From NCBI RefSeq assembly GCF_005403045.1, contig NZ_BJCL01000002.1:310001-374000 (forward strand): a stretch of DNA of 64,000 bases. The letters run 5' to 3'. The translations under genes and the position numbers were made by a program. The notes under the pieces were generated by a model, which saw only the letters and a list, made by a program, of their open reading frames with translations, ran no database searches and was not told the origin of the DNA. Origin of the DNA: Pseudaquabacterium pictum (GTDB lineage: Bacteria > Pseudomonadota > Gammaproteobacteria > Burkholderiales > Burkholderiaceae_C). Shown piece by piece: positions 11,117 to 22,978 of this stretch. Numbering within the stretch: position 1 is the stretch's first letter; each line of letters begins with the position of its first letter.

Positions 11117-11201
11117 TGGTGCCGTCGGCGAGACTCGAACTCGCACAGCTTTCGCCACTACCCCCTCAAGATAGCGTGTCTACCAATTTCACCACGACGG
11201 C
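11117..11201 (-). tRNA. tRNA-Leu (anticodon GAG)
   Basis: Long-variable-arm (class II) tRNA of 85 nt including an encoded CCA (11119-11117). The acceptor stem GCCGTCG (11201-11195) pairs with CGACGGC (11127-11121), with discriminator A at 11120. The anticodon stem CTATC/GGTAG encloses the loop TTGAGGG, which gives anticodon GAG and reads CUU/CUC leucine codons. The T arm contains the GTTCGAGTC core. Placement between secG and nuoA is, as far as I know, characteristic of Burkholderiales. Confidence 0.95.
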
Positions 11202-19493: not shown

Positions 19494-19508
19494 TGGCACA
19501 GGGTTTGC
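19494..19508 (+). promoter_or_regulatory. Sigma-54 promoter of the nitrate-type ABC importer operon
   Basis: TGGCAC (19494-19499), five bases, then TTGC (19505-19508): the GG and GC dinucleotides have exactly the 10-bp separation needed by RpoN. The predicted start is near 19520, leaving a leader of about 150 nt before nrtA. It lies in the 333-bp gap 19335-19667 between the divergent tsaD and nrtA genes; nothing coding is visible there. A single GGTGC half-site at 19447-19451 is all I see of a possible NtrC box. Control by nitrogen limitation is inferred from the promoter class and the gene function. Confidence 0.8.
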
Positions 19509-19667
19509 GAGAGGATGGGCATGAAGGTCAACGACGGCCTTCCCTGATCTGCCGCCGGCGCCCTGTGCGCGCCCGACCGGCACCGGACGATGGCGTCCCC
19601 ACCTTTGGCTCTGCAGAGCTGCCCGGTGCGGACGCCTTTTCATTTGTCTCCACGGAAAGCCCGCCCC

Positions 19668-20945
19668 ATGACCGCCCTGCCCCCGACCCCGACCCCCGCG
19701 CCCACCGATGCCGGTGTGGACACCGGCCGCCGCAGCCTGATCCGCGCCGGCGCGGCGCTGGGCGCCACCGGGTTGATTCCCGGCCTGCAGGCCGCCGTCT
19801 ATGCCCAGGGCTCGGACAAGCCCGAGAAGGAGGAGGTCAAGATCGGCTTCATCCCGCTGACCGACTGCGCCAGCGTGGTGATGGCCAGCGTGCTGGGCTT
19901 CGACAAGAAGTACGGCGTGAAGATCATCCCCACCAAGGAAGCCAGCTGGGCCGGCGTGCGCGACAAGCTGGTCAACGGCGAGCTGGACATGGCCCATGTG
20001 CTGTACGGCCTGGTCTACGGCGTGCACCTGGGCACGGCCGGCCCCAAGAAGGACATGGCCGTGCTGATGAACCTGAACCACAACGGCCAGGCCATCACGC
20101 TGTCCAAGAAGCTGGCGGACAAGGGCGCGGTCGACGGCCCCAGCCTGGCCAAGCTGATGGCCAGCGACAAGCGCGACTACACCTTCGCCCAGACCTTCCC
20201 CACCGGCACCCACGCGATGTGGATCAACTACTGGCTGGCCGCCGCCGGCATCAGCCCGGTCAGCGGCGCCAAGCTGATCACCGTGCCGCCGCCGCAGATG
20301 GTGGCCAACATGCGGGTGGGCAACATGGACGGCTTCTGCGTGGGCGAGCCCTGGAACCACCGCGCCATCATGGACGGCATCGGCATCACCGCCAACACCA
20401 CCCAGGACATCTGGAAGGACCACCCCGAGAAGGTGCTGGGCACCACCGGCGACTTCGTCAAGAAGTATCCCAACACCACGCGCGCGGTGATGATGGCCGT
20501 GATCGAGGCCGGCCGCTGGATCGACGCCGGCCTGCAGAACAAGATGAAGATGGCCGAGACGGTGGCCGACAAGAGCTACGTCAACACCAGCGTCGACGCG
20601 ATCAACCAGCGCATCCTGGGCCGCTACCAGAACGGCATGGGCAAGACCTGGGACGACCCCAACCACATGAAGTTCTTCAACGACGGGCTGGTGAACTTCC
20701 CGTTCCTGAGCGACGGCATGTGGTTCCTCACCCAGCACAAGCGCTGGGGCCTGCTGAAGGACCACCCCGACTACCTCGCGGTGGCCAAGCAGGTCAACCA
20801 GGTCGACCTCTACAAGCAGGTCGCCTCGGCGATGAAGATCAGCGTGCCCAAGGACGTGATGCGCAGCACCAAGATGATCGACGGCGTGGTCTGGGACGGC
20901 AAGGACCCGGCCAAGTACGCCGACGGTTTCAAGATCAAGGCCTGA
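19668..20945 (+). CDS. nrtA: Nitrate-type ABC transporter, periplasmic substrate-binding protein (NrtA/NasF family)
   Basis: 425-residue solute-binding protein of the NMT1/NrtA family. The N-terminus has a twin-arginine signal (RR at 21-22, GRRSLIRAGAALGATGLIPG), so export by Tat is likely. The mature part begins near VKIGFIPLTDCASVVMA, the family opening, and contains FPTGTHAMWINYWLAAAGI and the PPPQMVANMRVGNMDGFCVGEPWN region (key contacts VGNMDGFCVGEPWN) typical of nitrate/nitrite binders. The start at ATG 19668 is chosen because it opens the Tat signal; longer frames upstream cross the promoter. First gene of the importer operon, behind a sigma-54 promoter. Cyanate or bicarbonate cannot be excluded as ligand. 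Confidence 0.88.
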   Translation: MTALPPTPTPAPTDAGVDTGRRSLIRAGAALGATGLIPGLQAAVYAQGSDKPEKEEVKIGFIPLTDCASVVMASVLGFDKKYGVKIIPTKEASWAGVRDKLVNGELDMAHVLYGLVYGVHLGTAGPKKDMAVLMNLNHNGQAITLSKKLADKGAVDGPSLAKLMASDKRDYTFAQTFPTGTHAMWINYWLAAAGISPVSGAKLITVPPPQMVANMRVGNMDGFCVGEPWNHRAIMDGIGITANTTQDIWKDHPEKVLGTTGDFVKKYPNTTRAVMMAVIEAGRWIDAGLQNKMKMAETVADKSYVNTSVDAINQRILGRYQNGMGKTWDDPNHMKFFNDGLVNFPFLSDGMWFLTQHKRWGLLKDHPDYLAVAKQVNQVDLYKQVASAMKISVPKDVMRSTKMIDGVVWDGKDPAKYADGFKIKA

Positions 20946-20982
20946 GGCCGGCGCGCCCAGCCACCGCATGAAGGAGCCCCCC

Positions 20983-21927
20983 ATGGTCAGTGCCGTCTTC
21001 CACACCCCGCTCGAGGCTGCCGCGGCAGCCGAGCCCCGCCTTGCTGCCGCGGCCGCCACCGAGCCCCGTCCCGCCACCGAGTCCCCGCCGCGTGCAGCGG
21101 CGACGCCCGCGGCCACGCCGGCCGAGCGGCCCGCCAAGCCGCCGCGCGAGCCCTTCGACTGGCGCGAGCTGACGATGCGGGTGCTGCCACCGGTGCTGGG
21201 CATGGCCCTGCTGGTCGGCGTCTGGGCGCTGCTGACGATGAACAGCACCAGCTTCCCGTCACCGGCCAAGACCTTCGACGCCGCGGTCAAGCTGTTCGCC
21301 GACCCTTTCTACAGCAAGGGCCCGAACGACCAGGGCATCGGCTGGAACATCCTGTTCAGCCTGCAGCGGGTGGCCATCGGCTTCGGCCTGGCGGCGCTGG
21401 TGGGCATTCCGCTGGGCTTCATCATCGGCCGCTTTGAGTTCTTCAGCCGCATGTTTTCGCCGCTGATCAGCCTGCTCAAGCCGGTGAGCCCGCTGGCCTG
21501 GCTGCCGATCGGCCTGCTGGTGTTCCAGGCGGCCAACCCGGCCGCCATCTGGACCATCTTCATTTGCAGCATCTGGCCGATGGTGGTGAACACCGCCGTG
21601 GGCGTGCAGCGCGTGCCGCAGGACTACCTGAACGTGGCGCGGGTGCTGAACCTCAGCGAGTGGAAGATCATCACCCGCATCCTGTTCCCCGCCGTGCTGC
21701 CCTACATGCTGACCGGCGTGCGCCTCTCCGTGGGCACGGCCTGGCTGGTGATCGTGGCCGCCGAGATGCTGACCGGCGGCGTGGGCATCGGCTTCTGGGT
21801 GTGGGACGAGTGGAACAACCTCAACGTCCAGCACATCATCATCGCCATCTTCGTGATCGGCATCGTCGGGCTGCTGCTCGAGCAGATGCTGATGCTGGTG
21901 GCCCGCCGCTTCTCCTTCGACGACTGA
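20983..21927 (+). CDS. nrtB: Nitrate-type ABC transporter, permease (NrtB family)
   Basis: 314-residue membrane permease. The start is placed at ATG 20983, because GAAGGAG lies just before it; an ATG at 20968 would read through that site. After an Ala/Pro-rich N-terminal arm of about 55 residues come a first helix (VLPPVLGMALLVGVWALL) and a binding-protein-dependent transport domain. The EAA-type coupling loop is visible as LNVARVLNLSEWKIITRILFPAVLPYM. The signature EMLTGGVGIGFWVWDEWNN is characteristic of NrtB/SsuC-type permeases. It is flanked by nrtA (37 bp) and the ATPase gene (10 bp). Confidence 0.9.
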   Translation: MVSAVFHTPLEAAAAAEPRLAAAAATEPRPATESPPRAAATPAATPAERPAKPPREPFDWRELTMRVLPPVLGMALLVGVWALLTMNSTSFPSPAKTFDAAVKLFADPFYSKGPNDQGIGWNILFSLQRVAIGFGLAALVGIPLGFIIGRFEFFSRMFSPLISLLKPVSPLAWLPIGLLVFQAANPAAIWTIFICSIWPMVVNTAVGVQRVPQDYLNVARVLNLSEWKIITRILFPAVLPYMLTGVRLSVGTAWLVIVAAEMLTGGVGIGFWVWDEWNNLNVQHIIIAIFVIGIVGLLLEQMLMLVARRFSFDD

Positions 21928-21937
21928 GGACAGCACC

Positions 21938-22738
21938 ATGACCAGCCAATTCATCGAAGTGCAGAACGCCGAGATGGTGTTCACCACCCGCAAGGGCCGC
22001 TTCCATGCGCTGCGGGAGATCCACCTCACCGTGGCCAAGGGCGAGTTCGTCACCCTGATCGGCCACTCGGGCTGCGGCAAGAGCACGCTGCTGAACCTGA
22101 TCGCCGGCCTGACCCTGCCCAGCAGCGGCGTGCTGATCTGCGACAACCGCGAGATCGCCGCGCCCGGCCCGGAGCGGGCGGTGGTGTTCCAGAACCACAG
22201 TTTGTTGCCCTGGCTGACCTGCTTCGACAACGTCTACCTCGCGGTGGAGCGGGTGTTCGGCGCCACCGAGCCCAAGGCCCGGCTGAAGGAGCGCACCGCC
22301 GCCGCGCTGGCCCTGGTGGGCATGGGCCATGCGCTGCACAAGCGGCCGCACGAGGTGTCGGGCGGCATGAAGCAGCGGGTGGGCATCGCCCGTGCGCTGG
22401 CCATGGAGCCCAAGGTGCTGCTGATGGACGAGCCCTTCGGCGCGCTGGATGCGCTGACCCGCGCCCACCTGCAGGACGAGCTGCTGAAGATCGTGGCCCG
22501 CACCCAGAGCACGGTGGTGATGGTCACGCACGATGTGGACGAGGCGGTGCTGCTGAGTGACCGCATCGTGATGATGACCAACGGCCCCGCCGCCACCATC
22601 GGCGAGATCCTCCCAGTGCACCTGCCGCGACCGCGCAACCGGGTGGAGCTGGCCGAAGACCACGACTACGTGCACTGCCGCAAGCAGGTGCTGGACTTCC
22701 TCTACACCCGCCACGGGCATGTGGAGAAGGCCGCCTGA
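21938..22738 (+). CDS. nrtD: Nitrate-type ABC transporter, ATP-binding protein (NrtC/NrtD family)
   Basis: 266-residue ATPase. Walker A is GHSGCGKST, the Q-loop is VVFQNHSLLPWLTC, the ABC signature is VSGGMKQRVGIARAL, Walker B is VLLMDEPFGALDA and the switch His is in VTHDVDEAVLL. It contains only the ATPase domain and lacks the NrtA-like C-terminal regulatory domain of cyanobacterial NrtC, so it resembles NrtD. A GAGGACAG site precedes the ATG. It closes the importer operon; no nitrate reductase gene follows within the window. Confidence 0.9.
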   Translation: MTSQFIEVQNAEMVFTTRKGRFHALREIHLTVAKGEFVTLIGHSGCGKSTLLNLIAGLTLPSSGVLICDNREIAAPGPERAVVFQNHSLLPWLTCFDNVYLAVERVFGATEPKARLKERTAAALALVGMGHALHKRPHEVSGGMKQRVGIARALAMEPKVLLMDEPFGALDALTRAHLQDELLKIVARTQSTVVMVTHDVDEAVLLSDRIVMMTNGPAATIGEILPVHLPRPRNRVELAEDHDYVHCRKQVLDFLYTRHGHVEKAA

Positions 22739-22757: not shown

Positions 22758-22773
22758 GGGCACGGCGCTTGCT
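22758..22773 (+). promoter_or_regulatory. Second sigma-54-type promoter, directed at the intergenic RNA
   Basis: GGGCACG (22758-22764), four bases, then TTGCT (22769-22773). It differs from the consensus TGGCACG-N4-TTGCW only in the first T. GG (22759-22760) and GC (22771-22772) are exactly 10 bp apart. It lies just after the ATPase stop codon and points away from the operon, with a predicted start at about 22784. Confidence 0.6.
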
Positions 22774-22783
22774 GTTGAAGGCT

Positions 22784-22875
22784 CGACACTCTGCAACAGT
22801 GTCTGTCTATCTCCTCAGCAGGGCGCAGGCCCTTTGGTCCAACCCCTCGGCGTGTTGCGTCGGGGGGTTTTTTTT
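22784..22875 (+). ncRNA. Candidate sigma-54-dependent small RNA behind the nitrate importer
   Basis: A segment of about 92 nt with no plausible reading frame begins 12 bases after the -12 element of a sigma-54-type promoter and ends in a strong terminator. Three stems can be drawn: GACACT-CTGCAAC-AGTGTC (22785-22803), AGGGC-GCAG-GCCCT (22820-22833) and the 12-bp terminator stem (22841-22869). The linker between the first two stems contains CTCCTC (22811-22816), complementary to Shine-Dalgarno sequences and exposed for base pairing. It lies in the 254-bp gap before the histidine phosphatase gene. It may instead be only the operon's 3' untranslated region. Nitrogen-regulated RNAs behind RpoN promoters are known in Pseudomonas (NrsZ, NalA); homology is not claimed. 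Confidence 0.5.
22841..22875 (+). terminator. Rho-independent terminator after the nitrate importer / candidate sRNA
   Basis: A 12-bp stem AACCCCTCGGCG / CGTCGGGGGGTT (two G-U pairs) with loop TGTTG is followed by six further T. It is one of the strongest terminators in the window and closes the importer operon, the candidate small RNA, or both. Confidence 0.92.
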
Positions 22876-22978
22876 CTCTGCGCCGGCTGACTTGCACCAG
22901 CCTGGCGCAGGACGCCGCACCAAGCTGGTGAGCCGGCGTCCGGTCGCCGCCGCGACAAAGGCGCTCCGGGCCGCTGGC

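Follow-up and report, generated by a model that had tools for sequence, protein, structure and literature searches.

Behind the genes of a nitrate-type importer in Pseudaquabacterium pictum, the 64,000-nt stretch of DNA analysed here (the window) holds a short segment that can be read either as the 3′ end of the importer operon or as a gene of its own. A preliminary description favoured the second reading, a regulatory RNA with its own promoter, and the question is whether related genomes bear this out. We consider the best explanation, at a probability of roughly 0.72, to be a stand-alone, trans-acting small RNA (sRNA) with a sigma-54 promoter, most probably activated by NtrC and acting by anti-Shine-Dalgarno (anti-SD) repression. 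The features of the locus are collected in Table 1.

Table 1 Features of the RNA locus and the importer operon (positions in the window)
Feature	Position	Strand	Remarks
Sigma-54-like promoter of importer operon	19494..19509	+	TGGCACAGGGTTTGCG, 10/12
nrtA-like substrate-binding protein	19668..20945	+	Pfam NMT1_2; no NCBIfam model above cut-off
nrtB nitrate ABC permease	20968..21927	+	TIGR01183 above cut-off
nrtC nitrate ABC ATPase	21938..22738	+	TIGR01184 above cut-off; ends 19 nt before RNA promoter
Sigma-54 (RpoN) promoter of RNA	22758..22773	+	GGGCACG (22758-22764), N4, TTGCT (22769-22773); 11/12 consensus positions, GG/GC spacing correct
Predicted small RNA, ~92 nt	22784..22875	+	start (~22784) predicted from promoter, end from terminator
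Hairpin 1, 6 bp	22785..22803	+	covarying, changes on both sides at 6/6 pairs
Linker TGTCTATCTCCTCAGC, mostly unpaired	22804..22819	+	CTCCTC anti-Shine-Dalgarno at 22811-22816
Hairpin 2 (AGGGC...GCCCT)	22820..22833 (stable part); 22815-22837 (whole)	+	nearly invariant
Intrinsic terminator, 13-bp stem (22841-22869) and U tail	22841..22875	+	stem letters vary, compensating changes on both sides at 11/11 modelled pairs
NtrC-like dyad TGCACCAGCCTGGCGCA, 11/12	22893..22909	.	~+109 from predicted start; putative function

Taken alone, the window offers little. The RNA promoter is the only one of 15 sites with at most two mismatches to TGGCACGNNNNTTGCW that has a single mismatch, but shuffled versions of this G+C-rich 64-kb window are expected to hold 18.0 such sites, so that the match by itself proves little. 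The minimum free energy of 22784-22875 is -39.5 kcal/mol, against -27.9 (s.d. 3.2) in shuffles, and this z-score of -3.64 is probably what many stretches with a strong terminator would give. Since neither the fold nor the promoter match is remarkable by itself, the claim had to be tested by comparison. The minimum-energy fold does contain the three stem-loops that had been drawn, as two hairpins and a terminator, the last with 13 pairs (12 bp in the preliminary description) and its run of T. The CTCCTC hexamer lies where it had been placed but is not wholly unpaired as claimed: four of its six bases are free in this fold, and the last two pair in a weakly held extension of hairpin 2.

When 60 relatives were searched at the DNA level, 14 genomes matched. 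The match covers the RNA in seven genomes of the same genus besides its own, and in the rest it is confined to brief stretches, the end of nrtC for example. All eight same-genus sequences (window included) keep a GGCA-N6-TTGCT promoter, a hairpin, TCTATCTCCTCAGC, a GGGC/GCCC hairpin, GTCC and a terminator, the sequence of which varies. A model that contains the promoter (R1), built from eight sequences, matches 13 of the 21 genomes of the genus at E<=0.01; with the weaker matches dropped, nine of the 21 are counted as carriers (E<=1.4e-20), eight of which had been used to build R1. RNAalifold on the first alignment (A1) had proposed a helix between the -12 box and CAGC, also present in R1; as the -12 box lies outside the transcript, this helix was discarded. 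A second model (R2) was therefore built from the transcript only, using an alignment (A3) of seven of the eight sequences and leaving out L006, which had been misplaced in alignment A2.

Searched against the family (399 genomes, 141 genera) at E<=0.001, this promoter-blind covariance model finds a match in 35 genomes from 14 genera, one in each carrier genome. Thirty of the 35 loci were examined for seed and promoter, four of them (the window and the loci of G012, G003 and G004) being known from the first DNA search. CTCCTCAG is present in every one of the 30, and so is a sigma-54 site of at least 10/12, which ends 34-41 nt before CTCCTCAG and has the exact GG/GC core in 29 loci; an earlier scoring had covered 29 of the 30, one model match having started within its promoter. 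Control windows reach this sigma-54 score in only 4 of 1,191 cases (in 34 loci). A conserved -24/-12 element at a fixed distance is what a sigma-54-dependent sRNA should have, and the near-perfect RpoN promoter with exact spacing that had been described thus finds firm support in the relatives.

An exact-pattern scan of genome contigs returned 58 stretches, 53 of them credible. When 43 of the 58 were run against R2, 37 matched; five without a match (from Salinicoccus, Amaricoccus, WOR-3, Chthonomonas and Ruminococcus) were dropped as chance, and L103, likewise without a match, was kept for its nrtABC context. The carriers among the 53 loci belong to Rubrivivax (among them R. gelatinosus and R. 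benzoatilyticus), Aquabacterium, Piscinibacter, Rhizobacter, Methylibium, Azohydromonas, Aquincola and Albitalea, the others being Burkholderiales or Betaproteobacteria without a genus name. Because 15 of the pattern stretches are already among the R2 or R1 matches, the 53 loci and the R2 family loci overlap and are not independent sets. Elsewhere in the order, no credible carrier was found among 300 genomes searched with R2 and 399 searched with model R3, under strict filters that lose weak matches. Four R2 matches outside the family were rejected as look-alikes with no sigma-54 site above 7/12, and the same applies to six further R3 matches, five outside the family (three of these at loci that R2 had already matched) and one within it (G171). 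One look-alike, L312, has CTCCTCAGAAGGGC but neither a T run nor a promoter.

For the structure, 65 sequences, of which 62 are distinct, were aligned to R2. They give a covariation score of 0.558; shuffles give 0.188 (s.d. 0.010), and slid partners 0.05-0.13, never above 0.127. Being fitted to the model, the alignment leans towards the structure, and relatedness can lift sequences above shuffles even where no structure exists. Bases pair in 96.7% of the cells of the alignment and in 98.4% of those of hairpin 1, and in individual folds the letters and loop lengths of hairpin 1 differ between genera. Of the three stems for which covariation had been proposed as a check, hairpin 1 and the terminator covary strongly; hairpin 2 is too invariant to say much. 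Among the folds of the 62 distinct relatives (window included), 34 leave the whole CTCCTC hexamer unpaired and 52 leave at least five of its six bases free, hence the predicted RNA has the invariant, exposed segment to be expected of a trans-acting anti-SD sRNA. Across 54 loci, mean pairwise identity peaks in the core (0.86) and the promoter (0.72), two values inflated because the collection pattern required parts of both. It is 0.40 for the spacer with hairpin 1 and 0.43 for the remainder of hairpin 2 with the linker, and falls to 0.27 over the 60 nt ahead of the promoter and 0.22 downstream.

A leader, a cis-regulator or a small open reading frame serving the downstream gene is a scarcely credible alternative. 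Mechanically called reading frames do overlap the RNA, but it ends in an intrinsic terminator, its downstream neighbour varies from locus to locus, and its length differs among relatives, which speaks against a conserved reading frame.

The neighbourhood bears on a second alternative, in which the segment would be merely the terminator or 3′ UTR of the importer operon and the promoter fortuitous. Such a reading would suit the position of the RNA right behind nrtC and the strong terminator at its end, and nrtC does lie upstream in 30 of the 53 credible loci (25 directly, within 120 nt, and 5 farther away). However, in 17 of the 53 the upstream gene is a divergent tsaD (15 directly, 2 farther away) and the importer is not there; the remaining six have other contexts, two of them with less than 100 nt of upstream sequence. 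Since the promoter is still in place in the tsaD loci, the RNA gene keeps it apart from the importer, and hairpin 1 and the seed are conserved as well. Comparison thus already contradicts the 3′ UTR reading, and we consider it very improbable, even though an additional, processed form of the RNA may arise from nrtC read-through. The conservation of promoter, hairpin 1, anti-SD core and terminator together, and their occurrence away from the importer, strongly favour a regulatory RNA gene over a plain 3′ end, in line with the preliminary description.

The importer is of the nitrate type, its permease and ATPase passing the NCBIfam cut-offs of ntrB and ntrCD. The sigma-54 promoter that had been noted for this upstream operon is conserved: in all 17 loci with sufficient upstream sequence, the 320 nt preceding the nrtA match contain a site scoring 10/12 or better. 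An NrtA-like protein (E<=1e-60) occurs in 38 of 40 carrier genomes, the two without a match being G002 (86% complete) and G102 (99% complete); within the genus it occurs in 8 of 9 carriers and 5 of 12 non-carriers. In G124 the NrtA-like gene and the RNA share a contig but are some 1.5 Mb apart. The association between importer and RNA is real but not obligate. The earlier suggestion that both form one module hence holds as an association, and is weakened as a claim of a single unit by the tsaD loci and by the 2 of 40 carriers that lack an NrtA match. In three loci (L100, L112 and L136), a protein of about 310 aa, GAF-like by eye, is encoded between an ABC ATPase and the RNA.

The activator was sought through NtrC-like dyads, scored against what we take to be the NtrC consensus. 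In the window, the dyad behind the RNA (Table 1) is followed by a weaker one (9/12) at about +132 from the predicted RNA start. Across 59 loci (the window and all 58 pattern stretches, the five chance loci included) 17 dyads score 10/12 or better where shuffles would predict 5.15, a count that overstates independence because the loci are related. All but one of the 17 fall between +86 and +150, immediately beyond the RNA terminator. A position control at 10/12 finds a dyad at +105 to +220 in 12 of 52 loci, whereas each of the other bins has one in 0-3 loci of about 50; when the threshold is lowered to 9/12, this bin (19/52) hardly differs from the following one (17/52). Over the whole window, NtrC-like dyads are no commoner than chance (8 found, 11.2 expected). 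At the importer promoter the best dyads, 9-10/12 in 17 loci, are scattered, and they are not counted as evidence.

Sigma-54 serves many enhancer-binding proteins, and the RNA could be a sigma-54 sRNA under another of them, responding to carbon, redox or envelope stress and not to nitrogen. This would fit the finding that 15 of the 59 loci have a dyad of at least 10/12 and 44 do not, and also the neighbours, given that neither tsaD upstream nor the HscA-like protein (judged by eye) encoded downstream in 10 of 16 loci is a nitrogen gene. We nevertheless hold a different activator to be unlikely: the dyads cluster at one place, the importer lies upstream in many loci with a conserved sigma-54 site before nrtA, and nearly all carriers have an NrtA-like protein. 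NtrC is therefore the favoured candidate for the activator, and the sigma-54 type of promoter together with the dyads suggests that the RNA is probably under nitrogen control.

In Rfam, neither the window RNA nor five other members have a match at gathering; the sole match of the window at that level is a tRNA gene (11120-11201, minus strand), and the general scan gave no NrsZ match. Below threshold the window RNA scores 19.6 bits with NsiR1 and 19.6 bits with ncS037, both chance-level families, and 17.3 bits with RF02278 (gathering score 50). The last of these raises the possibility of a diverged member of RF02278, the Betaproteobacteria toxic sRNA or double-hairpin RNA, which we regard as quite improbable. 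The RF02278/double-hairpin RNAs of Burkholderia cenocepacia (ncS03, ncS05, ncS27 and ncS62) have the same exposed CU-rich segment with UCUCCUC, a short hairpin and a terminator, and R3 recognizes 10 of 30 loci brought in by RF02278 (24 of the 30 above its cut-off) at E<=0.02, which points to distant kinship or to convergence. However, the score is far below gathering and not the best of the subthreshold families, and neither the own locus nor any of the five other members reaches the cut-off, whereas a full RF02278 copy elsewhere in the same genome, outside the window, scores 67.6 bits (G000:C15:68334-68395, L021). The RNA has UCUCCUCAGYAGGGC...GCCC in place of the UGUCUCCUCCACC...GGUGGAUU-type hairpin of RF02278 loci, without GGUGGAUU, and carries a covarying 5′ hairpin and a sigma-54 promoter. 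Within 150 nt upstream of 27 RF02278 RNAs, a sigma-54 site of 10/12 occurs once and is absent from 26. Copy number differs too, with several homologues per Burkholderia genome against one match per genome here (35 genomes). Filing the RNA under RF02278 thus fails, and given the missed cut-off and the weak cross-recognition by R3 we file it as a separate sRNA family. The family is apparently undescribed: among the titles and opening lines of abstracts searched in the open literature, none describes this RNA.

The sRNA released from the 3′ UTR of glnA mRNA in Enterobacteriaceae, presumably the one named GlnZ, contrasts with this RNA and its independent promoter. That sRNA is reported to belong to nitrogen limitation and to adjust the carbon/nitrogen balance (PMC9731577). 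RNAs that depend on RpoN and NtrC have a precedent in NrsZ of Pseudomonas aeruginosa, described as an sRNA of nitrogen limitation dependent on NtrB/C and RpoN, but unlike the RNA found here it is about 226 nt long, is processed and activates rhlA (PMC8395346). NcS25 of Burkholderia cenocepacia is closer in size and presumed action, an 84-nt sRNA thought to occlude the Shine-Dalgarno sequence and tied to nitrogen metabolism, although it is reported to have no sigma-54 motif upstream and unchanged expression on nitrogen depletion (PMC10117139). ncS27 is a 92-nt RNA with a 5′ extension and a CU-rich region (PMC5688073); like S17 of Bordetella pertussis it acts, or is presumed to act, at ribosome-binding sites (PMC5688073, PMC11722255). 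S17 represses its target through Site 1, as compensatory changes have demonstrated, and a target of S17 is a sigma-54 activator (PMC11722255). S17 and S17S resemble the present RNA in coming from Betaproteobacteria and in offering a short single strand to ribosome-binding sites, a pairing that is proposed here; by its description in the same source, S17 differs in having a sigma-A promoter and a short form made by RNase E processing (PMC11722255).

In the mechanism that we favour, sigma-54 RNA polymerase would transcribe the RNA, with NtrC most probably switching it on under nitrogen limitation. The 5′ hairpin would present the UAUCUCCUCAG segment largely unpaired; behind it come a short hairpin and a terminator with a U tail, which is probably a site for Hfq. 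The exposed UCUCCUCAG is complementary to strong Shine-Dalgarno sequences, and we infer that the UAUCUCCUCAG segment pairs with the purine-rich Shine-Dalgarno regions of target mRNAs and represses their translation, on the model of the double-hairpin RNAs in Burkholderia and of S17 in Bordetella.

The preliminary description had also called for mRNA targets of the CTCCTC linker to be predicted, and here the comparison was unproductive. In the own genome, the complement of the entire linker has 16 sites with up to three mismatches (that of the RNA itself included) against 6 for the reversed pattern, a result counted against the best explanation. CTGAGGAGA-N-ATG occurs at 94 places in 12 carrier genomes, two of these places being the complement of the RNA itself, and the proteins at the other 92 (30 + 62 loci) were inspected. 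Two candidates recur and were followed. An ABC binding-protein gene (type assigned by eye, NCBIfam giving no family) appears in three genomes with differing spacers; the protein was found in 23 of 30 genomes, with a start that is readable in 15 (9 carriers and 6 non-carriers). It was rejected: its Shine-Dalgarno region matches the linker over 7-10 nt in the nine carriers and over 9-11 nt, so no less well, in the six non-carriers. Cyanase recurs in four genera and was found in 26 of 53 genomes, with readable starts in 11 carriers and 5 non-carriers; CTGAGGAGA is kept in 4 of the 11 and in none of the 5, which is not convincing. Neither candidate supports a conserved complementary target tied to the presence of the RNA, and the candidate genes may instead be targets of an RF02278-type RNA such as the full copy in the own genome. 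The cyanase genes of the four genera (L183, L194, L198 and L237) have a common Shine-Dalgarno context, CTGAGGAGAATYGCATG. An elongation-factor-like protein appears as a CTGAGGAGA match in two genomes of the same genus, and in the own genome an enoyl-CoA-hydratase-like gene has a 10-nt match at the Shine-Dalgarno sequence (L156, L177).

With this RNA, the anti-SD sRNAs of Betaproteobacteria would gain a family under sigma-54 control, and nitrogen shortage would have a possible, testable route to resetting the translation of other genes in common environmental bacteria. With a covariance model and a strict promoter the RNA is easy to find, and to test in culturable carriers such as Rubrivivax gelatinosus. 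A bolder reading, which we put forward tentatively and think somewhat doubtful, is that this new sRNA family of the Rubrivivax/Aquabacterium/Rhizobacter group feeds nitrogen status, through the UCUCCUC seed that it shares with the widespread RF02278/S17-type RNAs, into their anti-SD regulon, and that some members of the group activate it from NtrC sites downstream of its own terminator.

A locus in another family of the order (L047, in G051) has an RF02278-like match at 1501-1564 with a sigma-54-like site, TGGCACAACCCGTGCT (10/12), a hairpin, UCUCCUCC and a terminator. Its architecture is the same in other letters, and it is perhaps an independent sigma-54 anti-SD RNA.
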